This document shows positions 35 to 50,203 of a stretch of 64,000 nt of DNA, in pieces. Origin of the DNA: Rugamonas violacea (GTDB lineage: Bacteria > Pseudomonadota > Gammaproteobacteria > Burkholderiales > Burkholderiaceae_D). The stretch lies in assembly GCF_016461825.1 (NCBI RefSeq), contig NZ_JAEMNU010000083.1:137274-201273 (forward strand), in the 5' to 3' direction. The notes beneath the pieces are model-generated. The model worked only from the letters and a program-made list of their open reading frames with translations. It searched no databases and was not told the origin of the DNA. Positions within the stretch are counted from its first letter, which is position 1. The number at the start of each line of letters is the position of its first letter. The position numbers and the translations under genes were made by a program.

Positions 35-62
35 AAAAAAAAGGCGGCGCATTTGCGCCGCC
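35..62 (-). terminator. Rho-independent terminator of the J-domain operon
   Basis: An 8-bp GC-only stem (GGCGGCGC at 43-50, GCGCCGCC at 55-62) with loop ATTT is followed, on the minus strand, by eight U residues (35-42). It lies about 80 bases after the last gene of the minus-strand operon, beyond the octamer repeats. Confidence 0.88.
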
Positions 63-82
63 CTTCCGCCGATCCGCCACGC

Positions 83-146
83 CAACACGCCAACATATCA
101 ACACGTCAACACGCCAACACGTCAACACATCAACACATCAACACGT
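83..146. repeat. Octamer tandem repeat CAACACGT, 8 units
   Basis: Eight consecutive 8-base units of the form CAACAYRY (mostly CAACACGT, CAACACGC or CAACACAT) run from 83 to 146. The array abuts the stop codon (146-148) of the last operon gene. A slipped-strand gain or loss of one unit would not change the protein but would alter the spacing to the terminator. Confidence 0.85.
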
Positions 147-1033
147 CAATCGTAGTCGGCGTCCAGCTCCGAGCCGGCGTAGTTCTCCAACTCGGCGAAC
201 AGGGTCTTCATGGCCGTGCGGCCGCGAATGTTCTGCACCACCGTGCAGTGGTCGCGATAGCTGGCGATGCGATCGAGCAGCACCGGGTGGTGTTGCACCG
301 GCACTTTGGCCAACAGCGCGGCCCAGCCCTCCTCGAAGTCCGGCTTGTTCTTGCGCACCGCCTTGACGAAGCGCTCGAACTCCTTCTGCCCGGTGCGGGC
401 GACAACGCGCCCACCACCCTCGATGGCGAAGATGATGGCCAGCGCGATCACCCCCTCGGCGTTCAGGTCGCTGTCGTTGACCGGGCCGCGCTCGTGATGG
501 CGGCGCAGCCAGCCGGCCAGGCGGACGATGGCCTGCACCTCCTTGCGCTGCTTGAGCATGACGGCGTAGCGCTCGTAGCCCGACCAGTTCTGGTTCGGGT
601 CGGCCTGGCACAGGTCGACGAACAGGTCGCGCAGGCGGCGCTGGGTGTACACCGGGTCCTGGTCGTACTCGCCGACCAGGGCGTCCTCGGGCAGCGCCGA
701 CAACTCGCGGATCAGGCGGTAGCCGGCCTGGAAGGCCGCCTCGGCGCCGTGCTCGATGAGGAAGTCCAGCGCCGCCCCGTCGCCCTCGTCCAGCAGCACG
801 CTGTCGAGGCCCAGCGAGACGCCGCCCACGGTCAGTTGCAGCGCCTTCTGGATGCCGTCGGCGGTGCGCTCGTTGGTGAACTTCTCGGCCACCATGGCGG
901 TGATGCCGGCCAGTTCGTCGGCCAGGTTGACGGCGGCGTCCTCGCGCGGATCGGCGGCCAGTTGCTTGATCGCGCGGGTCAGCCGCGGCAGGTTTTCTAC
1001 GACTAACGCAGGCAGCATGTGTCCGGCTTCCAT
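146..1033 (-). CDS. Uncharacterised protein, fourth gene of J-domain operon
   Basis: The 295-residue product is not recognised. It has no signal peptide or membrane segment and looks soluble and mostly helical, with many Leu/Ala/Glu heptad-like stretches (for example around 15-110). Its start overlaps the stop of the preceding gene as TGATG, so the two are translationally coupled. An internal Met at position 6 is an alternative start. It is the last gene before the terminator at 35-62. Codon use and GC match the neighbours, so it looks like resident DNA rather than a recent arrival. Its function can only be guessed from the operon: a partner or client of the J-domain protein. Confidence 0.8.
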   Translation of the reverse strand: MEAGHMLPALVVENLPRLTRAIKQLAADPREDAAVNLADELAGITAMVAEKFTNERTADGIQKALQLTVGGVSLGLDSVLLDEGDGAALDFLIEHGAEAAFQAGYRLIRELSALPEDALVGEYDQDPVYTQRRLRDLFVDLCQADPNQNWSGYERYAVMLKQRKEVQAIVRLAGWLRRHHERGPVNDSDLNAEGVIALAIIFAIEGGGRVVARTGQKEFERFVKAVRKNKPDFEEGWAALLAKVPVQHHPVLLDRIASYRDHCTVVQNIRGRTAMKTLFAELENYAGSELDADYD

Positions 1034-39848: not shown

Positions 39849-40337
39849 TCAGTGCGACCACAGCCGCACCTGGCCCTGCAAGGACACGGTGCCGTTGATG
39901 TTCAGGCTGCCCAGGTTGCCGCTGACGGCGGCGTTCGGATCGGTCTGCACGCTGAGCGATTCGAAGCCGAAATTGGTGTAGTGCACATAGCCGGGCAGAC
40001 CGATCTGGATGTAGTCGCCGCCACCGTCGCCGCGCTGCTTGACGCCCAGGCTGACGGCGAACATGTCGACCACGCCGCGCACATTCTTGATGACCACATA
40101 GCGCGTCTGGCCGTCGCCGTTGAAGCCGAGCGAGAGCCGGCTGTCGCTGACGGCGCCGACCAGGGTCGGATCGTTCAGCACGACGTGGGCGGCGAAGCTG
40201 ATGCCGTCGCCGCCGCTGACCTGCGACAACTCCGCGTCGTCCAGCGGACGCAGCGGCTGCCCGGCCGCCCGCGCGCCCAAGCTGCCCAACAGCAGCATGG
40301 CGGCCAGCGCCGTGCGAAGGAAAGTGGCGCCGCCCAT
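39849..40337 (-). CDS. Exported FilA-like/DUF6160-like protein with GG-type leader motif (1)
   Basis: The 162-residue protein has a signal peptide (about 1-25), then DDAELSQVSGGDG (33-45), which is strikingly like a double-glycine bacteriocin leader, followed by a beta-strand-rich region. It ends LQGQVRLWSH, an end shared with its relatives. It is the last gene of a tight minus-strand run; its ATG is one base after the upstream stop. I assign it to the loosely defined FilA/DUF6160 group from the leader motif, length and strand pattern. Confidence 0.75.
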   Translation of the reverse strand: MGGATFLRTALAAMLLLGSLGARAAGQPLRPLDDAELSQVSGGDGISFAAHVVLNDPTLVGAVSDSRLSLGFNGDGQTRYVVIKNVRGVVDMFAVSLGVKQRGDGGGDYIQIGLPGYVHYTNFGFESLSVQTDPNAAVSGNLGSLNINGTVSLQGQVRLWSH

Positions 40338-40338
40338 C

Positions 40339-41250
40339 TCAGCGCCTGAACTTGATGTCGAGATACTGGATTTGCATCGAACCGATGCGCGAGGAACCCA
40401 GATCCACCGTCGGCTGGCCCGGGCTGCTGAAGGAGATGTTGTCGATCACCAGGCCGCCGGCCGGCGCCGCGCCGCTGCCGTAGCGCGCGTCCGGCCAATC
40501 GATGCCGATGTGCAGGCGCGGGCCGGTCTCGTCGGTCAGCGCGTTGATCACCGCCGGCTGCGCCGCCACGTCGGCGATGGCCCACGGCGTCTGGTTGAAG
40601 TTGCCGTTGGCGTCGACGCCGCCCAGGTGGATGCCGCTAAGGGCCATCTGCTCGCCGCTGTTGTCGCGGCCGCGCGGCCGCAAGGCCAGTTGGCCGACGT
40701 CGAGCCGCAGCGCGGCGCCGAAGGCGACACCGTCATTGACCTGCGGCGTGGAAAACTGCAGCCCGCCGCCATACATCACCACATCGCTCATCACCACGCT
40801 GCCGTTGCCGCGCGCGATGCCATCGGCGTTGACGCCCCAGTCGTAGGCGAACTGCCAGCGCTGCTCGCCATTGCTGTTGAGCGGAAAGGCCAGCTTGACG
40901 ACGTCGGCCAGGCCGGCCGCGCCGGCGACGATGTCGAGCCGGTAAGGGTCGGAAAACGGCAGCGGATTGTCGCTGCGCGCGGCGGCGAAATTGTCGACGT
41001 AGACGCTGGCGCCGAGCGCCGTGGTGTAGGTGACGCGGGCGTCGCCGCTCATGGCGAAGCCGTTCAGGTCGAAGCTGACGCCGTCGCGCCCGCGCACGTT
41101 CGACAGGGCGCCGTCGCTCAGCGCCTCCATCGCCAGCGCCGCCGGCGCCGCCACGCCGGCGCCGACGCCGACAAGCAGGCCGAACGCGACCAGCAGCGCG
41201 GCGCGGCGCGGTACTAGAGAAGTGCGTGGCGCAGTGCCTGGCGCGCGCAT
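40339..41250 (-). CDS. Exported FilA-like protein with leader motif (2)
   Basis: This 303-residue protein has a basic N-terminus and hydrophobic core (about 17-40, cleavage near ALA). SDGALSNVRGRDGVSF (45-60) corresponds to the leader-like element. The remainder is beta-rich with DNG/NSNG turns and GGLVIDNISFSSPG near the end. No cysteines are seen. Two bases separate it from the upstream gene. Likely a surface or periplasmic structural protein of the same system as its neighbours; family assignment from motif and context. Confidence 0.72.
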   Translation of the reverse strand: MRAPGTAPRTSLVPRRAALLVAFGLLVGVGAGVAAPAALAMEALSDGALSNVRGRDGVSFDLNGFAMSGDARVTYTTALGASVYVDNFAAARSDNPLPFSDPYRLDIVAGAAGLADVVKLAFPLNSNGEQRWQFAYDWGVNADGIARGNGSVVMSDVVMYGGGLQFSTPQVNDGVAFGAALRLDVGQLALRPRGRDNSGEQMALSGIHLGGVDANGNFNQTPWAIADVAAQPAVINALTDETGPRLHIGIDWPDARYGSGAAPAGGLVIDNISFSSPGQPTVDLGSSRIGSMQIQYLDIKFRR

Positions 41251-41252
41251 GC

Positions 41253-42113
41253 TCAGCGCACCTTCGGCAGGTTGGGCGGCACCAGGCCGTTGGTGCTGAT
41301 GGCCTGCAACTTGTCGCGCCAGTTCAACCAAATGCCGGCCTGCGCCATGTCGGGCATGGTGGTGGTGCCGGACGGCGCCTGGAACTGCACGCCGGTTTTC
41401 AACGCGGAAATCCAGAAGTCGCGGCTCGGTCCGCTGGCATCGCCGGCCCGCACGCCGCCCAGTTGCGCCAGCGGCAGACAGGGCGCGGTGCAAGCGCCGT
41501 CCCAGCGCTTGCCGCCGCCCAGCGTGTCGCTGCGCGAATCGAGCAGCAAGGCGCTGCCGTCGGCCGCCGTGGCGCCGACCTGCAGCGAGCCGGACAGGGT
41601 GTTCAATTTGAGGCCGATGTCGCCGCTGATGGCGTCGAAGCCGAAGCGCATGCCGATCACTTCGCGCGTCGCGTTGTCGGCCGCGCTGCGATAGACGAAT
41701 TCAAAGTACGGGTTGCTGATGTGGACCAGGCGCTGCGCCTCGCCGGCGTCGCTGCGGCCGAACTGCAGATAGGGCATGTCGATGTCGGCGCCGCCGCCGT
41801 TGCGCGCGGCGTAGTTGTACTCGCCCAGGCGCATGTTGCGGAAGTTGGCGCTCAGCGAGATGTCGGCATCGAGCGCGACGCGGGTGAAGTCGAAGCCGCC
41901 CAGGCTGCTGTTGTTCATCGCCAACAGGCCCTGGCCGCGCGAGTTGGACATCTCCTCGTCGTTCAGCGGCTGGAGTTGCGCCCAGCTCGACGGCATCGCC
42001 AGGGCCGCCATCAACAAGGGCAGCGCGTGCAGCGCGCGCGGCAAACGCCGCGGCGACAGGCGCGGGGTGCGCGGGACGGCAAACCGGCCCGGCGGGAATG
42101 GGGTGATTGTCAT
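41253..42113 (-). CDS. Exported FilA-like protein with leader motif (3)
   Basis: The 286-residue protein has an Arg/Pro-rich N-terminus then a hydrophobic stretch (about 29-45, WAQ). NDEEMSNSRGQG (51-62) is the leader-like element. A beta-rich body follows with one Cys pair (GACTAPCLP, about 208-216) that could form a disulfide in the periplasm. It lacks the D of the DG element. First gene of the three-gene run 42113-39849, 137 bases downstream of the nearly identical pair. Confidence 0.72.
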   Translation of the reverse strand: MTITPFPPGRFAVPRTPRLSPRRLPRALHALPLLMAALAMPSSWAQLQPLNDEEMSNSRGQGLLAMNNSSLGGFDFTRVALDADISLSANFRNMRLGEYNYAARNGGGADIDMPYLQFGRSDAGEAQRLVHISNPYFEFVYRSAADNATREVIGMRFGFDAISGDIGLKLNTLSGSLQVGATAADGSALLLDSRSDTLGGGKRWDGACTAPCLPLAQLGGVRAGDASGPSRDFWISALKTGVQFQAPSGTTTMPDMAQAGIWLNWRDKLQAISTNGLVPPNLPKVR

Positions 42114-42249
42114 GGTCGTTTCGATCGCGCAGTGGGCGAGCGTTCTGCGCCCGCACGGAGGGATGACAGGCCGCCGGCATCGCCGGCGGCTTATCGGTCC
42201 AGGCGGGAGCGGCCGCGGGCGCGGCCGTCCAGCCCGGACCTTCAGACGA

Positions 42250-42762
42250 TTAGTGCGCCCAGATCCAGACTTGGGTGCCGCGCAGATCGATCTGGTTCAT
42301 CGCCATCGAACCGTAGGAAGCGGTGCTGTGGCCCATCTTGATCGAATCGACCGAGACGTTCAGCAGTTTGCCGGCGGCCACTTGCACGTCGGCCGGGATG
42401 GCGATCTGCACCACGTCGCCGCCCGATGCCGCGTTGTAGAAGGTGCCCGGATTGGTCACACCGGCGGCGCCGGCGGCTTGCAGGAAGGAGTTGCGCGACA
42501 GGATGTCGATGCTGGCGGCGATCAGGCCGTTGATTTTGATGCCGTTGAAGCTGACCGAACCACCACCCAGGCCGTTGGCGTCGACCGCGTCGGTATCGGT
42601 GTAGACGAAGGAATCGATCTTGATGTTCAGGTTGGCCGCGATCGACACGCCGTCCTGGCCGCTGACGGTGCTCAGCTCGGCGTCCTGGATCGGGGTCATG
42701 GCCGAGGCGGACAGGGCCAGGGTTGCCAAGGCTGCTGCGACTGCGGTTTTGATGATTTGCAT
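42250..42762 (-). CDS. Exported FilA-like/DUF6160 protein, copy A of a duplicate pair
   Basis: The 170-residue protein has a clean signal peptide (1-21, ASA), the leader-like DAELSTVSGQDG (27-38), then strand-rich sequence ending IDLRGTQVWIWAH. Only two residues differ from copy B (Ala/Val in the DTD(A/V)VDAN segment and His/Asn in IKMG(H/N)STAS). GGAGA precedes the ATG. Equal strength of signals in both copies suggests high-level expression. Relatives in Acinetobacter are called FilA of a putative pilus system, with no proven role. Confidence 0.82.
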   Translation of the reverse strand: MQIIKTAVAAALATLALSASAMTPIQDAELSTVSGQDGVSIAANLNIKIDSFVYTDTDAVDANGLGGGSVSFNGIKINGLIAASIDILSRNSFLQAAGAAGVTNPGTFYNAASGGDVVQIAIPADVQVAAGKLLNVSVDSIKMGHSTASYGSMAMNQIDLRGTQVWIWAH

Positions 42763-42915
42763 GGTGTCTCCAGAATTTGGTTTTGGTTAATTGTTATGGT
42801 GTTTTTTTCAAGACTGCGGAGCCAGTGTAGGGTCCGCTTCGCTGCCGGTCCAGCGTGCTGCGCTGACTTTCGCGGCCAACCATCAGGCCTGGGAAGCCAG
42901 CGCAGCCTTAGCCGA

Positions 42916-43428
42916 TTAGTGCGCCCAGATCCAGACTTGGGTGCCGCGCAGATCGATCTGGTTCATCGCCATCGAACCGTAGGAGGCGGTGCTGTTGCCC
43001 ATCTTGATCGAATCGACCGAGACGTTCAGCAGCTTGCCGGCGGCCACTTGCACGTCGGCCGGGATGGCGATCTGCACCACGTCGCCGCCCGATGCCGCGT
43101 TGTAGAAGGTGCCCGGATTGGTCACACCGGCGGCGCCGGCGGCTTGCAGGAAGGAGTTGCGCGACAGGATGTCGATGCTGGCGGCGATCAGGCCGTTGAT
43201 TTTGATGCCGTTGAAGCTGACCGAACCACCACCCAGGCCGTTGGCGTCGACCACATCGGTATCGGTGTAGACGAAGGAATCGATCTTGATGTTCAGATTC
43301 GCCGCGATCGACACGCCGTCCTGGCCGCTGACGGTGCTCAGTTCGGCGTCCTGGATCGGCGTCATGGCCGAGGCGGACAGGGCCAGGGTTGCCAGGGCTG
43401 CGGCGACTGCGGTTTTGATGATTTGCAT
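42916..43428 (-). CDS. Exported FilA-like/DUF6160 protein, copy B of a duplicate pair
   Basis: This 170-residue near twin of copy A has the same signal peptide, DAELSTVSGQDG element and WIWAH end. ATG 43428 is preferred (GGAGATAAAC before it); a frame start at 43440 would add four residues. The spacer 42763-42915 separates the copies, and a similar but diverged spacer-like stretch occurs at about 43660-43730, implying the duplicated unit once included flanking DNA. Confidence 0.82.
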   Translation of the reverse strand: MQIIKTAVAAALATLALSASAMTPIQDAELSTVSGQDGVSIAANLNIKIDSFVYTDTDVVDANGLGGGSVSFNGIKINGLIAASIDILSRNSFLQAAGAAGVTNPGTFYNAASGGDVVQIAIPADVQVAAGKLLNVSVDSIKMGNSTASYGSMAMNQIDLRGTQVWIWAH

Positions 43429-43924
43429 GTTTATCTCCAAGAATAGTTGTATGAGTGCGAAGGTTGATTTGCGAATTACCGTCTTGCTCTTATGTCACGG
43501 CCGCCCCGCCCTGGCCCCCGATCGGGGCCCTGCCGCCAGGGATTCCCCCCTGGAATTGCCGCCGGTATCGGCAATCCTGGGACTGCGTCGCGCCGGGCCG
43601 GCCTGCCGTGAAAATCTTAATATTTGGATATTAATTAAATTAATCATAGGGGCCGCTCTCCACCCCGGTCTAGCCTTTCGCACTGACTTGCAAAGCCAAG
43701 CACTTGGCCTTGGGAGCCACACAGAGTGAGCGCGGTGTTGCGCCGCTGTTGCTTGCGTTAGCATAAGTTTTGAAGGTTTTCTAAAGGTTTTCTTAGAGCT
43801 TCCTTTCTAAAAAAACAGATGCCGGGCCGAAGCAAAGCATGCGTTAATAAATAACAAAAAAATAAGAAGTGTTGTCGGCCTAATAAAGCACGACCGTTCT
43901 ATTCATATAAAAAATGGAGACAAG
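43429..43924. promoter_or_regulatory. Divergent control region between FilA-like genes and C39 operon
   Basis: No gene is seen in these 496 bases. The left part is GC-rich with hairpins such as GGCCCC-CGATC-GGGGCC near 43513. The right part (43740-43920) is AT-rich with A and T tracts, a likely promoter region for both directions. Confidence 0.5.
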
Positions 43925-44038
43925 ATGATCACAGTATTCGGGCGCCACGCGTCCGGGGCGGGCGCGCGCCGCGCGCCGTCCCGCCCCCTCCTCGCCGTCC
44001 CGCGGCCGTCGTGCGGCGCCACCGGCCGCGCCGCCTGA
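43925..44038 (+). CDS. 37-residue leader ORF before C39 peptidase
   Basis: GGAGACAAG precedes ATG 43925. The product is Arg/Ala/Pro-rich and ends four bases before the C39 peptidase start, which itself has no visible ribosome-binding site. It therefore looks like a translational-coupling leader rather than a functional protein; a frameshifted true N-terminus of the peptidase is the alternative. Confidence 0.4.
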   Translation: MITVFGRHASGAGARRAPSRPLLAVPRPSCGATGRAA

Positions 44039-44042
44039 TCCC

Positions 44043-44810
44043 ATGCTGATGCTCCTGCTGGGCGTAGTCGCCGCCATCATTGGCGGCGCCGGTGTCATGT
44101 CCCGACACGAACCGCTGGACCGTCCGAAAGGGCAGTTCGAGATGCCGCAAGCCATGCTGGGCGGCGGCCAGTACACCCAGAGCGTGGCGCTGGAACCGTT
44201 CTCCGAATTGAAGTACCGCCACATCGTGCGCCAGGCCTTCGACTACAGCTGCGGCTCGGCCGCGCTGGTGACCATCCTGACCTACCACCTGGGCCTGAAG
44301 GTCAACGAGCAGCAGGCCATGGAGGGCATGCTGGAAAAGGGCGAGAAGGAAAAGATCATCGAGCGGCGCGGCTTCTCGCTGCTCGACATGAAGCGCTACG
44401 TCGCCTCGCTGGGCGTGACCGGCGCCGGCTTCAAGGCCGACATCAAGGATCTGCTGACCCTGGACCAGCCGGCCATCGTGCCGATCGACTATGCCGGCGC
44501 CAAGCACTTCGTGGTGCTGCGCGGCATCCGCGACGGCGTCGTCTACATCGCCGACCCGTCGGCCGGCAACATCGTCTTCTCGCTGTCCGAATTCGCCGGC
44601 CTGTGGGACAAGAACACCCTGTTCATCATCTCGCCGGCCAAGGGCCAGAGCGCGGTGGCCCGGCTGGCCCTGTCGGACCGCGAACTGGGCGTGGTCGACA
44701 TGGACCGCGTCAGCAACCAGGGCCGGCTCGACGCCCTCAACCACGCCAGCCACCTGCTGGAGCGGGCCGTCAACTCCGGCACCACCGGCACCTGGATGCA
44801 CCGTCAATAA
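44043..44810 (+). CDS. Periplasmic C39-family cysteine peptidase (FilB-like)
   Basis: The 255-residue protein has an N-terminal membrane anchor or signal (1-20) and a single C39 peptidase domain: Gln64 (oxyanion hole), Cys70 in DYSCGSAAL, His155 in KHFVVLRG and Asp171 in IADPS, so the catalytic set is complete. It lacks the ABC transporter parts of bacteriocin exporters, so it would act outside the cytoplasm on proteins already exported by Sec. In bacteriocin systems this fold cuts after GG/GA. The leader-like motifs in six neighbouring proteins make them the obvious substrates. It opens the operon with two barrels behind. Confidence 0.85.
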   Translation: MLMLLLGVVAAIIGGAGVMSRHEPLDRPKGQFEMPQAMLGGGQYTQSVALEPFSELKYRHIVRQAFDYSCGSAALVTILTYHLGLKVNEQQAMEGMLEKGEKEKIIERRGFSLLDMKRYVASLGVTGAGFKADIKDLLTLDQPAIVPIDYAGAKHFVVLRGIRDGVVYIADPSAGNIVFSLSEFAGLWDKNTLFIISPAKGQSAVARLALSDRELGVVDMDRVSNQGRLDALNHASHLLERAVNSGTTGTWMHRQ

Positions 44811-44847
44811 TTTTTGCAGCGTTCACTTTTCTCCACAAGGATCCCGC

Positions 44848-45948
44848 ATGACTCTTCGCACTCTGCCCGCCGCTGTGAAAGCTGCATTCGCATTGACGCC
44901 CCCCCTCGCGGCCACGCTCGCGGCCACCCTCGCGGCCGCCCTGCTGGCCGCGCCGGCGCTGGCGCAAACCGCGCCGGCCGGCGCCCCGGCCGCGTCGACA
45001 CAAGACGGCAACACCGCCAAGCCGGCCGACGCCGCCGCCGCCCGCGACGCCCTGGCCAAGAAGGAGGGCGAGGGCGACCAGAGCGCCCTGCTGAAACAGA
45101 CCCTGACCGCCGTCGACAAGCAATACTCGCTGATCCGCCGCAGCCAGTTGCAGGTCAGCTACGACCTGAGCTACAGCTACATCGGCCAGGAGAAGATCGT
45201 CACCGACCTGGCCGGCGGCGGCATCACCCTGTTCGACATCGAGAACACCAGCGCCCACACCATCACCAACACCCTGTCGGCCGACTACGGCCTGCTCGAC
45301 AATCTGACCGGCAACGTCACCCTGCCCCTGATCTCGAAATACTCCGAGTCGCGCGGCAACAGCGGCCTGTCCAACTCGCTGGGCGACATCGGCCTGGGCG
45401 CGCGCTGGCAGCCCTTCGAGGCGCACCGCGACACGCCCAACATGACCGTCACCGGCAGCATGCGCCTGCCCAGCGGCCGCAGCCCGTTCAAGATCGTCGC
45501 CGGCAGCGGCCAGGCCACCGGCGCCGGCGTCACCTCCTTCACCGGCGGGCTGAACGTCAACCGCATCGTCGACCCGGTCGCCCTGTTCGGCTCGATCAAC
45601 GTCACCGCCAGCCTGCCGGCCAAGAACCTGTGGCAGGTCAACGGCACGCGCGTGCTGACCCGGGTCCAGCCCGGCGCCTCGGTCGGCTTCGGCCTCGGCT
45701 TCGCCTACGCGCTGTCGTACGGCATTTCGACGACGATCTCCTTCCAGGAAGCGATCTCGGCCGGCTCCAAGCTGAGCTTCGCCGACGGCCTGAAGGTCAA
45801 GACGGCGATGCAGACCTCGGGCATCCTCAACCTGGGCCTGGGCTACCGCGTCTCGCCCAAGACCACCGTCAACCTGTCGGTCGGCATCGGCCTGACCGCC
45901 GATTCGCCCAATCTGACGGTGGGCCTGAATCTGCCGCTGGCCTTCTAA
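44848..45948 (+). CDS. Outer-membrane beta-barrel-like protein
   Basis: The 366-residue protein has a signal peptide ending ALAQ (about 40), a disordered Ala-rich linker with a short helix (DQSALLKQTLTAVDKQYSL), then alternating strands with aromatic/Gly pattern (YDLSYSYIGQEKIV, LGDIGLGARWQPF, NMTVTGSMRLPSGRSPF) ending in the barrel-closing LTVGLNLPLAF with terminal Phe. This is like DUF3187/phenol-degradation MetA-type barrels. Second gene of the C39 operon; the next ATG follows its stop directly. Confidence 0.78.
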   Translation: MTLRTLPAAVKAAFALTPPLAATLAATLAAALLAAPALAQTAPAGAPAASTQDGNTAKPADAAAARDALAKKEGEGDQSALLKQTLTAVDKQYSLIRRSQLQVSYDLSYSYIGQEKIVTDLAGGGITLFDIENTSAHTITNTLSADYGLLDNLTGNVTLPLISKYSESRGNSGLSNSLGDIGLGARWQPFEAHRDTPNMTVTGSMRLPSGRSPFKIVAGSGQATGAGVTSFTGGLNVNRIVDPVALFGSINVTASLPAKNLWQVNGTRVLTRVQPGASVGFGLGFAYALSYGISTTISFQEAISAGSKLSFADGLKVKTAMQTSGILNLGLGYRVSPKTTVNLSVGIGLTADSPNLTVGLNLPLAF

Positions 45949-47619
45949 ATGCGCGCGCGCCCCACCGCCGCCGGCCGCGCCGGCGACCGCGCCAGCGCGC
46001 CGGCCAGCGTGGCGCCGCTGCGCCTGCTCGCCGTGGCGGCCGCCGCCGCCGCCGTGTGCGCGGCGCCGGCGCCGGCGCGCGCCGCGCTGACCGAAAACCT
46101 GACCACCAGCGTCACCGCCATGGCGCTGGGCAACGCCGTCACCGCCGATCCGCCCGGCATCGACTCGATCCACTTCAACCCGGCCGGCCTGGCCCGCCTG
46201 ACCGGCGACAGCGAAAGCTTCCACGCCTTCGGCGCCTCGATCCGCTCGGCGTCGAGCTTCCACGCGCCGCCCGGCTTCGACGTCGGCGGCTGGACCAACG
46301 ACCCGACCAGCGGCCAGAGCGGCGGCCCGGTGCGCCAGGGCATGTACGTGCCGGCTTACGGCAAGCCCGGCTGGCGCCTGCCCGGCGTCATCATCCCCGG
46401 CATCGGCATGTCCTGGAACAAGGCCGGCTCGCCGTTCACCTTCGCCACGCAAAGCTATATGTCGCAGGCGATGAGCCTGGACCGCACCACCGACATCAAC
46501 GACCCGGCCCAGTTCGGCGGCCGCCAGGTGCAACTGCAGCGCCTGGTGTACGTGGCGCCGTCGGTCGGCTACAAGTACTCCGACACCTTGCGCTTCGGCG
46601 TCTCGGTGCCGATCGCCCACTCGGCCTTCGTGGTCGACACCAATATGCGCTTCCCCAACGAGCTGCTGGGCGTGTTCGGCAAGCTGCAGCAGGGCTGGTG
46701 CCCCGAGGACGGCGGCAACATCATCGACACCTTCGGCTTCGGCGTCTGCGGCGGCGGCAAGGACGGCATGGTCAGCCCGTTCAAGAAGGCCGCCCACATG
46801 CGCCTGGAGATGACGGCGCCGTTCGACCCGACCATCAACCTCGGCGTGCTGTGGGAGCCCAGGCCCTGGTTCGCGCTGGGCGCGGTCTACCAGGGCGGTT
46901 CGAAGACCAGCTACAGCGGCACCTATGTGTTCGACACCGAGCCGATGCTGCGCAACTTCGTCCAGGGCCTGAACGCCAGCCTGCTCGGCCCGATCGCCGG
47001 CGCCGTGCTGGGCTTCCCCTCGTCGATCCCGGCCCAGCAGAAGGGCAACTTGAGCGCCACCATCCCCTTCCCCTCGCACCTGCAGGTGGGCGTCAAGCTG
47101 AAGCCGATCAAATACGTCCAGCTCAACGTCGACGCCAGCTACGCCAAGTGGGGCGAGTGGAAGGAGCTGAGCTTCCAGTTCGACCAGAGCGTCAAGCTGC
47201 TCGAGGTGGCGCGGCTGTACGGCATCCCCAATTCGAGCAAGCTGACCATTCCGCGCGGCTACAAGAGCGTGGTCAACTTCGCCTTCGGCCTGCAATTGTT
47301 CCCGACCGAAAAGCTGACCCTGCGCATGGGTTACGAGCCGCGCAAGAGCTCCATCCCGGCCAACAAGATCGACCTGATCGCGCCGCTGCCCGACACCAAG
47401 CTCTACGGCCTGGGCCTGAACTACAAGCTGAGCCCGCACAGCGACATCAGCATCAGCGGCTCCTACATGGTCGGCAAGTTCAACGTGCCGGCCAACACCG
47501 ACTGCAACCTGAACTGCAACACTTTTTTGAACGTGATCTACAACCCGTATGCCGGCCAGGATGTCTCCGGCGACATCCGCGTGCGCTATATGGGCGTCAA
47601 CTTCACCCACCGCTTTTGA
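45949..47619 (+). CDS. OmpP1/FadL-like outer-membrane protein
   Basis: The 556-residue barrel has a signal region (about 20-45) and the FadL family hallmarks: an N-terminal hatch-like segment (TAMALGNAVTADPPGIDSIHFNPAGLARL, about 54-82) with NPA, and a series of strands ending YMGVNFTHRF. FadL-type proteins let hydrophobic molecules cross the outer membrane. In this operon it could serve as channel or assembly platform. Two Cys-containing loops (QGWCPEDGG...GVCGGG; TDCNLNCN) are unusual for the family and may be disulfide-bonded. Confidence 0.82.
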   Translation: MRARPTAAGRAGDRASAPASVAPLRLLAVAAAAAAVCAAPAPARAALTENLTTSVTAMALGNAVTADPPGIDSIHFNPAGLARLTGDSESFHAFGASIRSASSFHAPPGFDVGGWTNDPTSGQSGGPVRQGMYVPAYGKPGWRLPGVIIPGIGMSWNKAGSPFTFATQSYMSQAMSLDRTTDINDPAQFGGRQVQLQRLVYVAPSVGYKYSDTLRFGVSVPIAHSAFVVDTNMRFPNELLGVFGKLQQGWCPEDGGNIIDTFGFGVCGGGKDGMVSPFKKAAHMRLEMTAPFDPTINLGVLWEPRPWFALGAVYQGGSKTSYSGTYVFDTEPMLRNFVQGLNASLLGPIAGAVLGFPSSIPAQQKGNLSATIPFPSHLQVGVKLKPIKYVQLNVDASYAKWGEWKELSFQFDQSVKLLEVARLYGIPNSSKLTIPRGYKSVVNFAFGLQLFPTEKLTLRMGYEPRKSSIPANKIDLIAPLPDTKLYGLGLNYKLSPHSDISISGSYMVGKFNVPANTDCNLNCNTFLNVIYNPYAGQDVSGDIRVRYMGVNFTHRF

Positions 47620-47675
47620 CCCTGGCAGCATGGCCGGGCACGCCGCCCGGCCGGATTTTTATAGGAGTGTAAGCA

Positions 47676-48227
47676 ATGTCCGCAGCAAACCAAGCCAAGA
47701 CCGCCGTCCTCATCCTCGCCTTCTGCGCCGCCGGCCTGGCCGGCGCCGCCGCGCCGGTGCCGCCGGCCAAGCAGGAGCTGGTCAACAAGATCCTGCAACT
47801 GTGGCGCATCGACGCCATCGGCCAGACCATGCTGCAGGCGCCGGTGGCCGACGCCGTGCAACAGGCCCGCGCCATGCTGCAGGGCCGCGCCGCCGCCGAC
47901 AAGCGCGACGCCGCCATGAGCGACGTTGTCGCCGAGGCGAAAAAATTCATGGAGGAGGCCAGCCCGATCACCGTCGGCAGCGCCGACAAGCTGATCCCCT
48001 CGACGGTGGCGCCGTTGCTGGCCGAGCGCTTCTCCGAGGACGAGCTGCGCCAGCTGATCGTGATCCTCGAATCGCCGGTGAAGAAGAAGTTCGAGTCGAT
48101 GGTGCCGGAGATGCAAAAGCTGCTCGGCGAAAGCGTCGCCAAGGATACCCGCGGCGTCATCGACCCCAAGCTGCAAGGCCTGAAGGAGCGCATCGGCCTG
48201 CGCCTGCGCGCCGCCGTCACGCCTTGA
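47676..48227 (+). CDS. DUF2059 domain periplasmic protein
   Basis: The 183-residue protein has a signal peptide (about 1-25) and a helical DUF2059 domain: VNKILQLWRIDAIGQTML near the start, then LAERFSEDELRQLIVILESPVKKKFE (about 109-134) and the terminal helix. Function of DUF2059 is unknown. Fourth gene of the C39 operon, with GGAG 8 bases before its start. Confidence 0.85.
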   Translation: MSAANQAKTAVLILAFCAAGLAGAAAPVPPAKQELVNKILQLWRIDAIGQTMLQAPVADAVQQARAMLQGRAAADKRDAAMSDVVAEAKKFMEEASPITVGSADKLIPSTVAPLLAERFSEDELRQLIVILESPVKKKFESMVPEMQKLLGESVAKDTRGVIDPKLQGLKERIGLRLRAAVTP

Positions 48228-48340
48228 TGCCACACCGCCCCACCGCAATGCAGCAACAGCGCAACACAGCAGCACAGCCGCGGCGCAGTCCGCGGCCCGC
48301 GTTTAGTCCAACCGCAGTGGTGACATACAGGAGGTCCACC

Positions 48341-48409
48341 TTGTCTACGCACTTCACTGAACCATCTTCGGCGCGCCCCTTCCGCCCCACCGCGGAGGAC
48401 GCGACATGA
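48341..48409 (+). CDS. 22-residue mini-ORF coupled to AraC gene
   Basis: AGGAGGT, an almost complete anti-SD match, precedes TTG 48341. The short frame ends with TGA overlapping the AraC ATG (ATGA at 48406). The gene after it has its own GGAGG. This is likely a coupling or regulatory leader. Confidence 0.35.
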   Translation: MSTHFTEPSSARPFRPTAEDAT

Positions 48410-49461
48410 GTTATTCATCGGCACTGCACCTGGTGCGCGGCGTCAAGTCGCGGCTGGCCCTGTCCGGCGTCGAGGCCGAGGCGCTGTTCGCCGAAGCCGG
48501 CCTCGACGAGGGCGACGGCCTGGCCTGCGACGCGCTGACCCTGTCCGACAAGCTCAGCCACCTGTGGGAATTGCTGGTGGAAAAATCCGGCGATCCCCTG
48601 CTCGGCCTGAAGATTTCCACGCCGCACCGGCTCGGCTGGCTCGGCGTGATGGGCCAGATCATGCTCGACTCGCCCACCGTGCAGAGCACCATCGAGCGCT
48701 GCCACGGCCACACCCGGGTCGGCATGCTGCTGCCGGGACGCCAGCGTGTGGTGCCGCAACAACGTTACGACTTCGTCTGGTGCGTGCTGCTGCGCACCCT
48801 GCGCTGCGCCGCCGGGCGCGACGACGCCACCCCGGTGGTGGTCGAGTACGCCTTTCCACAACCGGCCAACGCCCAGGTCTACAGCGAAACCTTCGGCTGC
48901 CCGGTCAAGTTCAACATGCCGCACAACGTGATGGAGTTCTCCGACACCGAGCTGGTCATGGCGCTGCCCAACCAGCCGCTGGAAAACGGCGACGGCCGCC
49001 GCGCGCTGGCCAGCCTGGCGCGCGCCGCGCCGCCCTGCTTCACCACCAAGGTGCAGTCGATGCTGGCCAGCCTGCTGCCGAAGGGACCGCCGCACCGCGA
49101 CGAGGTGGCGGCCAACCTGATGATGAGCGAGCGCACCCTGCAGCGCCGCTTGGCCGAGGAAGGCACCAGCTTCACCAGCCTGGTCGACGACACCCGCCGC
49201 GAACTGGCGCGCCAGGCGCTGCGCAGCGGCGAACTGTCGCTGAAGATGCTCAGCTTCCAGCTCGGCTTCTCCGAGCCGAGCGCCTTCTACCGCGCCTGCA
49301 AGCGCTGGTTCGGCATGGCGCCGTCGGACATCGTGCAGATGGCGCACCAGCCCGGTCCGCCACCGTTGTTGACGGCCACGCCGCCAGCGCCGCCGGCAAC
49401 GACTGCAGCACCGGCGCCCGCCGCATCGCCCGATGGCCTGCGCCACAAGCTGATCGCCTGA
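48406..49461 (+). CDS. AraC-family transcriptional regulator (arabinose-binding-like N-terminus)
   Basis: The 351-residue regulator has an N-terminal domain like OruR/ArgR-type AraC proteins (LSDKLSHLWELLVEKSGDPLLGLK, about 46-69; RLGWLGVMGQ). The C-terminal AraC DNA-binding domain spans about 230-325, with MMSERTLQRRLAEEGTSF and LSLKMLSFQLGFSEPSAFYRACKRWFG. A Pro/Ala tail follows. Its position in the C39 operon suggests it controls the exported-protein system. Confidence 0.87.
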   Translation: MSYSSALHLVRGVKSRLALSGVEAEALFAEAGLDEGDGLACDALTLSDKLSHLWELLVEKSGDPLLGLKISTPHRLGWLGVMGQIMLDSPTVQSTIERCHGHTRVGMLLPGRQRVVPQQRYDFVWCVLLRTLRCAAGRDDATPVVVEYAFPQPANAQVYSETFGCPVKFNMPHNVMEFSDTELVMALPNQPLENGDGRRALASLARAAPPCFTTKVQSMLASLLPKGPPHRDEVAANLMMSERTLQRRLAEEGTSFTSLVDDTRRELARQALRSGELSLKMLSFQLGFSEPSAFYRACKRWFGMAPSDIVQMAHQPGPPPLLTATPPAPPATTAAPAPAASPDGLRHKLIA

Positions 49462-49510
49462 ACACACGCCCGAACACTTTGTAGCCCAACCACCACAACC
49501 GGAGTCCGCC

Positions 49511-50203
49511 ATGGGATGGCTGTCACATAATCACCACAAATCGATGTTCGGCCAGCTGCTCGTCAGGAAGAAGCTGATTTCGCAGGAGCAGCTCGACGCC
49601 GCCATCGAACACCAGCGCAAGACCGGCCAACGGCTGGGCGACATTTTCGCCGAGTGGGACATCATCACCCACGAGCACGTCAACGACATCCTGCACACCC
49701 AGCGCAACCTGCGCCTGGCGGCGGCCATCGCCACCTCCCTGCTGGCGCCGCTGGAAGCCTATGCCGTCGAGGCGCTGCCGGCGCTGACCATCACCACGCC
49801 GGTGCTGCTGACCAAGCAGCAGTCCGGCTTGCAAGCGCTGACCGAGGACGAGATGAGCGACACCGCCGCCCAGGGCATGAGCGAGGATCTGGTGGCCCAC
49901 GTCAAGGAGCAGATCAAGCACAACGGCGTGGCGGCGGTCGGCGACATCGCCAAGATCGTCAACCCGGTGCTGGGTTTCCTCGAATCGGACGTGAGCATGA
50001 AGAACGTCGTCTACGATCCGAGCAAGGCGGCCGCCACCATCAACAAGGACGGCTCGCTGACCCTGAGCCTGCCCACCTCGATCGGCGAGATGAACTTCCA
50101 GAACATCCGCATCAAGGGCACCGACGGCCCCAGCTTCGGCAGCATCGCCATCAAGGGCATCGACCTGAGCGGCACCGTCATCACCGTCGCCTTCCACCAC
50201 TGA
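49511..50203 (+). CDS. MshEN-like domain fused to FilA-like exported segment
   Basis: The 230-residue protein starts with a stretch like the N-terminal domain of GspE/PilB-type ATPases (MFGQLLVRKKLISQEQLDAA, then IEHQRKTGQRLGDIF; about 12-63), a c-di-GMP-binding-type fold. A hydrophobic segment (about 68-87) follows, then TEDEMSDTAAQGM (111-123), the leader-like element, then a FilA-type C-terminal part ending GTVITVAFHH. The order implies a cytoplasmic sensor end and an exported end, or an unusually long export signal. Sixth gene of the operon. Confidence 0.72.
   Translation: MGWLSHNHHKSMFGQLLVRKKLISQEQLDAAIEHQRKTGQRLGDIFAEWDIITHEHVNDILHTQRNLRLAAAIATSLLAPLEAYAVEALPALTITTPVLLTKQQSGLQALTEDEMSDTAAQGMSEDLVAHVKEQIKHNGVAAVGDIAKIVNPVLGFLESDVSMKNVVYDPSKAAATINKDGSLTLSLPTSIGEMNFQNIRIKGTDGPSFGSIAIKGIDLSGTVITVAFHH

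Follow-up and report, generated by a model that had tools for sequence, protein, structure and literature searches.

Gene content of the Fil-like locus

A stretch of 64,000 nucleotides of Rugamonas violacea DNA (hereafter the window) carries at positions 39849-50203 a gene cluster in which a stand-alone peptidase of family C39 lies among six genes, P1 to P6, whose products share a leader motif resembling that of double-glycine peptides. Five exported proteins (P1-P5) are encoded on the minus strand, and the peptidase, two outer-membrane barrels, a DUF2059-like protein, an AraC regulator, and P6 on the plus strand (lengths in amino acids, aa; start codons of P2 and the FilC-like gene are our choice):

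39849..40337, minus strand: P1, exported DUF6160-like protein, 162 aa (PF19657 22.2 bits, below the cut-off of 27; NF050077 FilA 15 bits)
40339..41250, minus strand: P2, exported DUF6160 protein, 303 aa (PF19657 33.2 bits, cut-off 27)
41253..42113, minus strand: P3, exported DUF6160-like protein, 286 aa (PF19657 18.7 bits, below the cut-off of 27)
42250..42762, minus strand: P4, DUF6160 protein, relative of the solved pilus-like subunit 9XFV (FilA 40 bits, cut-off 220)
42916..43428, minus strand: P5, 98% identical copy of P4 (PF19657 73.1 bits)
44043..44810, plus strand: FilB-like stand-alone C39 peptidase with an N-terminal hydrophobic helix
44848..45948, plus strand: FilC-like outer-membrane barrel, distantly FapF-like (NF050079 262 bits, cut-off 630; NF058560 FapF 73 bits, cut-off 700)
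45949..47619, plus strand: FilD-like barrel of the FadL type (NF050080 413 bits, cut-off 970; PF03349 132 bits)
47676..48227, plus strand: DUF2059-like exported protein (PF09832 18.6 bits, below the cut-off of 23.6)
48406..49461, plus strand: AraC-type regulator (NCBIfam matches below cut-offs)
49511..50203, plus strand: P6, with an MshE-type domain of the cyclic di-GMP (c-di-GMP)-binding family, a membrane segment, the leader motif, and a P4-like C-terminus

The closest NCBIfam names of P4, the peptidase, and the two barrels are FilA, FilB (226 bits, cut-off 475), FilC, and FilD, respectively, and these four kinds of gene adjoin one another. Since all four matches fall below the curated cut-offs, the cluster is called Fil-like. 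The gene set recurs across Oxalobacteraceae and other Burkholderiales, and a smaller form is found at loci titled gammaproteobacteria. The window is close to Rugamonas rubra, its C39 protein being 95% identical to that of locus L013. Relatives of the DUF2059-like protein were found at 68 of 93 loci searched (window counted). The coding sequences of P4 and P5 are equal at 502 of 513 bases (98%) and their flanks are dissimilar, a pattern suggestive of gene conversion or of strong purifying selection since the duplication.

A leader motif shared by six proteins

The leader-like motifs noted in a sequence-only reading of this DNA were confirmed: a twelve-residue motif occurs without gaps and in one register in all six proteins, following an export or membrane segment (residues are numbered backward from the predicted cut):

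40209..40244, minus strand: P1, LDDAELSQVSGG (-12..-1), a true double-glycine (GG) end
41086..41121, minus strand: P2, LSDGALSNVRGR
41931..41966, minus strand: P3, LNDEEMSNSRGQ
42655..42690, minus strand: P4, IQDAELSTVSGQ, predicted cut after Q36
43321..43356, minus strand: P5, IQDAELSTVSGQ, the same letters as P4
49838..49873, plus strand: P6, LTEDEMSDTAAQ

The register common to the six comprises a hydrophobic residue at -12, L/M at -7, G/A at -2, and Q/R/G at -1. The fuller set of L/I-12, E-8, L-7, I/V-4, and G-2 is complete in three of the six (P1, P4, and P5), and the deviations from the double-glycine consensus are the lack of E-8 in P2, M-7 and S-4 in P3, and M-7, T-4, and A-2 in P6. 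Only P1 ends in GG or GA; the remaining five end in GR, GQ, or AQ.

P1-P5-like open reading frames (ORFs) share the register of the classical leader, quoted as LSX2ELX2IXGG (PMC3897388). The twelve-residue pattern, which itself restricts five of the twelve positions and leaves -4 unrestricted, was found in 310 of 327 such ORFs, drawn from the window and its related loci; of the 17 that lack it, 12 match a profile of the tag, as the leader with its signal peptide is called below (printed E <= 0.01). The motif is thus conserved in orthologues, on which the sequence-only reading had staked its proposal. Among the 310 positive ORFs, G-2 is present in 295 and A-2 in 15, L/M-7 in 309, V/I-4 in 261, Q/R-1 in 270, and GG in 32. 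Under a crude signal-peptidase rule, removal of the signal peptide leaves a leader of 15-17 aa in 239 of the 310, which is close to the 15-18 aa of microcin leaders (PMC10233263).

In the predicted model of P4, a leader helix (27-31) and a low-confidence segment (32-34) lie outside the beta fold, which begins at 39. Two simpler origins of the motif were rejected: chance, by the control genomes and control ORFs described below, and a mere part of the signal peptide, by P6, in which the motif sits behind a linker of changing length.

The stand-alone C39 peptidase

The peptidase (255 aa; PF03412 70.6 bits, cut-off 22) consists of the C39 domain alone and, unlike classical members of the family, is not part of an ATP-binding cassette (ABC) exporter. 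Its complete catalytic set (Q64, C70, H155, and D171), claimed by the sequence-only reading, was confirmed, and its predicted structure has the C39 peptidase fold. The four residues are invariant in all aligned rows, FilB-type (90/90) as well as FapD-like (40/40). Judged from sequence, it is a stand-alone C39 enzyme of the FilB/FapD type. Its score against the FapD equivalog is 122.7 bits, below the cut-off of 330.

The N-terminal export signal that had been ascribed to this enzyme did not hold up as such. The protein starts with a short hydrophobic helix that lacks both a basic n-region and a clear signal-peptidase site, and that therefore looks like an anchor rather than a normal signal peptide.

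In a tree of 138 C39 rows, in which the leader type of each locus was assigned by the analyst, the clades were FilB (90), FapE type (9), GG type (29 plus 8 second copies), and AG type (2), with support of 0.957-0.996 (0.985 for the FilB clade).

The deposited chain of a solved pilus-like filament begins behind the motif

The Protein Data Bank entry 9XFV, named "Pilus-like-alpha" and described as 'bacteria pilus (like)', contains 25 chains numbered 38..210. P4 is 54% identical to it over 124 aligned residues, and a profile of the P4/P5 family matches it with E 2.7e-58 across chain residues 1-173, i.e., the whole mature subunit. The chain matches residues 38-210 of the P5-type protein at locus L066 with 100% identity. 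Residues 26-37 of that protein read IDDSTLSTVSGQ, and a FilB gene follows 2.4 kb after the end of its gene. The deposited structure, rather than N-terminal sequencing, thus places the start of the chain at the predicted +1, directly behind the motif (GQ, then DG). Signal peptidase I is not expected to cut at sites with Q at -1, so a second cut would be needed. No open-access paper was found for 9XFV.

Co-occurrence of FilB and the leader tag across genomes

The sequence-only reading had recommended a search for joint occurrence of DUF6160 and C39 genes, and the two do accompany each other. In the order, 300 genomes were searched: five contain DUF6160 (Pfam model, E <= 0.001), and four of these five are the only ones with FilB (match threshold 200 bits), so that DUF6160 is present in 4/4 genomes with FilB and in 1/296 others. 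Among 377 genomes of the class, FilB above 200 bits and DUF6160 occur in exactly the same 7 (7/7 vs. 0/370); one of these (G306) has a DUF6160 score below Pfam's own cut-off, and three belong to one family, for which reason a Fisher test overstates their independence.

The tag is found well beyond the fil genes. A tag profile (A1) matches 5-21 proteins in each of 11 DUF6160 genomes, whereas, at E <= 0.01, 54 of 65 control genomes lack any match and the other 11 contain a single one (best 3e-5); two of these 11 matches are C39-register leaders adjoining another C39 gene. Within the fetched stretch, 75 of 80 named FilB loci hold a tag, and for the five that do not, a whole-genome search yielded 3-8 tags elsewhere in every case (5/5, E <= 0.01), as predicted.

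In three genomes (G406, G495, and G625), the DUF6160 matches are 12-13 short proteins spread over many contigs; those of G406 read like ELAPMTDAELQAVSGQ, followed by unrelated residues. Twenty-two tagged proteins were compared, being a part of the full sets of 17, 21, 16, and 5 in G406, G495, G625, and G306, respectively. They form 231 pairs, of which 164 are similar across the signal peptide plus leader and 12 across the rest of the sequence. Because the remainders of the 22 are mostly unrelated, the idea that DUF6160 is a single conserved fold throughout was rejected. The signal peptide plus leader is, by this comparison, a modular unit carried in some genomes by many scattered and mostly unrelated proteins.

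Two side observations concern the size and placing of these sets. In G406, G495, and G625 (L100-L116), one kind of signal peptide plus leader is borne by 16 to 21 proteins per genome. An Acinetobacter baumannii record (L227) has FilA and, in a second cluster of leader-bearing proteins (365000-376000) 1.4 Mb from the fil genes, five further tags.

Related pairings at FapD-like loci

Forty loci were fetched around lower-scoring, FapD-like C39 genes, and a motif in the C39 register is present on a neighbour at all 40. At 37 of them, the product of the downstream gene has L/M-7, R-3, G-2, and mostly G/K/R-1; one further locus has VSADTLAGIQGG, and at the last two the motif takes an AG form (e.g., LTEAQMDQVSAG) on exported proteins encoded in tandem. 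With a stricter pattern plus a hydrophobic stretch, a downstream match was obtained at 34 of 40 loci (100 ORFs tested), whereas the remaining 2186 ORFs gave 4 matches, two of which fell in the gene upstream of C39, and 1132 control ORFs gave 1. At Fap-type loci, the motif-bearing neighbour is FapE-like in 5 of 5 tested (67-137 bits, cut-off 250) and its motif ends in RG[KR][FY]; five GG-type neighbours tested were not FapE by score. Three of the 300 order genomes show strong matches to the AG tag, in each case on a contig that also carries a C39 gene.

It was reported that Cys38 of FapD is required for FapC secretion, which the C38A substitution abolishes (Rouse et al. 2017, PMC5557850), and the target of FapD is described in passages of PMC5557850 and PMC6173800 as unclear or yet to be determined. 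In the data given in the former, FapE alone among the Fap proteins lacks peptides in the first ~70 residues, which fits the site proposed here for FapE.

Some other features of these loci were also noted. Another stand-alone C39 gene, FapD-like and with the GG-type neighbour LPDSALEQARGGF, is present in the genome from which the window comes (L159; G000 contig C153, 1-8700). A third kind of C39 gene, at L186 and L168, has upstream of it tandem genes for small exported proteins whose leader is of the AG type (AQMDxVTAG). An RGG motif is seen, too, in the gene lying upstream of the peptidase at many FapD-like loci (L155, L161, L213, and others), and behind it the protein ends in repeat-like sequence, for example VIQNSGNNVLIQNATILNV; four such genes were scanned, and none gave a convincing Pfam or NCBIfam family.

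A proposed post-Sec maturation pathway and its alternatives

It is very probable that the locus is a Fil-like filament cluster with the following order of events. The DUF6160 proteins, as pilins of a pilus-like filament, would cross the inner membrane by Sec, and signal peptidase I would take off the signal peptide, leaving a leader of ~15-17 residues in the double-glycine register. The FilB-type C39 peptidase, presumably membrane-anchored and facing the periplasm, would recognize this leader and cut after G-(Q/R/G), so that the mature protein begins at or beside the first beta strand. By analogy with FapF, the FapF-like FilC barrel is the most likely route by which the mature subunits would reach the surface, there to assemble into a filament. 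The leader may hold back early subunit assembly or may address subunits to FilC. Sec export followed by a second, periplasmic cut by C39 had been put forward in the sequence-only reading; it gains support from the start of 9XFV at +1, the co-occurrence of two independently curated models, the modular leader, and the pairing at FapD-like loci, and the assignment of the cut to FilB itself is what we infer from them.

Several observations weigh against this pathway. The FilB protein lacks a basic n-region, which makes its topology uncertain. Most leaders have Q/R at -1, unlike the G/A of classical C39 sites. The 200-bit threshold for FilB was chosen after a gap in the scores had been seen (133/137 below, 211 and above), and genome G150, assembled in 680 contigs, carries 8 tags but lacks a FilB match. 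The start of 9XFV at residue 38 could reflect disorder of earlier residues; its coincidence with +1 is nonetheless exact.

It is unlikely that another periplasmic protease cuts the leader, with C39 acting elsewhere (e.g., on the barrel) and the genes traveling together for some other reason. The tags of G150 would fit this explanation, and FapF has also been considered as a FapD target (Rouse 2017, PMC5557850). However, the motif stands in the register of C39 leaders, and scattered tags accompany FilB even when unlinked. The peptidase tree also splits by leader type (FilB 90/90, support 0.985; FapE type 9; AG type 2), which joint inheritance of linked genes could likewise produce.

Slightly less probable still is that the motif stays on the mature protein as a structural or assembly element, that a disordered N-terminus is simply missing from the filament model, and that the C39 domain is a chaperone. 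Flexible ends are often missing from cryo-electron microscopy models. Inactive chaperones do exist among C39-like domains (PMC5557850), but all 130 aligned rows keep the catalytic residues and FapD C38A abolishes secretion (PMC5557850). In addition, the tag is borne by proteins with mostly unrelated remainders, and the deposited chain starts exactly at +1.

It is very improbable that FilB works on the cytoplasmic side, taking off signal peptide and leader in one piece to give a cytoplasmic form. In its favour, the basic residues of the window protein come after its hydrophobic helix and none before, but a family member is found in a filament, a cytoplasmic cut would block export since the signal peptide precedes the leader, FapD is functional with the OmpA signal peptide (PMC5557850), and the FapD-like enzyme of C. 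metallidurans begins with an apparently ordinary signal peptide (by eye).

P6 and c-di-GMP

The sequence-only reading had counted six exported proteins; P1-P5 are indeed exported, whereas P6 begins with an MshE-type domain of the c-di-GMP-binding family (NF053729 60 bits, cut-off 38; 5htl MshE E 0.00036), followed by a membrane segment, the linker, the motif, and the P4-like C-terminus (compared by eye). P6 would be a membrane-held substrate of the peptidase, whose cytoplasmic part may sense c-di-GMP, and the domain fusion possibly links c-di-GMP directly to filament assembly. Relatives of P6 were found at 44 of 93 loci searched (window counted).

Comparison with known systems

The Fap system of Pseudomonas likewise has a stand-alone periplasmic C39 enzyme adjoining a FapF-type barrel, Sec-exported substrates, and a catalytic Cys needed for secretion (PMC5557850). 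In the window, in contrast, several filament subunits themselves bear the leader, which ends in GQ, GR, or GG rather than RG[KR][FY]. None of the ten window proteins scanned, a set without P5, matched FapE (NF058559) at E<=0.1. No FapB or FapC model turned up in any scan; amyloid repeats were not searched for in the window.

In the Fil system of Acinetobacter (NCBIfam FilA-FilD), the FilA, FilB, FilC, and FilD genes also stand together, as at A. baumannii L212, and A. baumannii FilA bears the same leader, MDDAALSAATGQDG. The window differs in scoring below all the curated cut-offs, in the additional P1-P3, AraC gene, and c-di-GMP-domain P6, and in having its substrate genes on the opposite strand. 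Compared with C39 ABC exporters (PCAT1, ComA, and microcin exporters), the leader here lies behind a Sec signal peptide, no ABC domain is present, -1 is mostly Q/R, and the substrates are mostly proteins (open frames of ~80 to 800 codons) rather than short peptides. 9XFV, known here from its deposited structure, shares with the window the P4/P5 family, and its chain starts behind the predicted site.

Implications for C39 leader peptidases

A periplasmic C39 enzyme in an export system (FapD), the Fil genes as named in NCBIfam, and the deposited filament are already known. No open-access paper was found that gives the leader, the cut site, the pairing rule, or the genome-wide tag; any 9XFV paper lies outside that search. 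On balance, we favour the wider view that stand-alone exported C39 enzymes are general post-Sec leader peptidases whose clades read different dialects: GQ/GR (FilB), GG (most FapD-like enzymes), GK/GR (FapE), and AG (the third clade). In bacteria with FilB, the leader would be a mobile address tag on up to ~20 mostly unrelated exported proteins per genome, probably a ticket to the FapF-like outer-membrane channel, and the missing substrate of FapD would be FapE, cut behind RG[KR].

Exact predicted sites are thereby given for FapE and for the FilA/DUF6160 proteins, and one assembly route now connects a C39 enzyme with the orphan family DUF6160 and with a pilus-like filament whose structure was solved recently. 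What is new in these results suggests that C39 leader processing of the bacteriocin type has moved behind Sec, into the periplasm, and that in some bacteria it became a genome-wide sorting tag.

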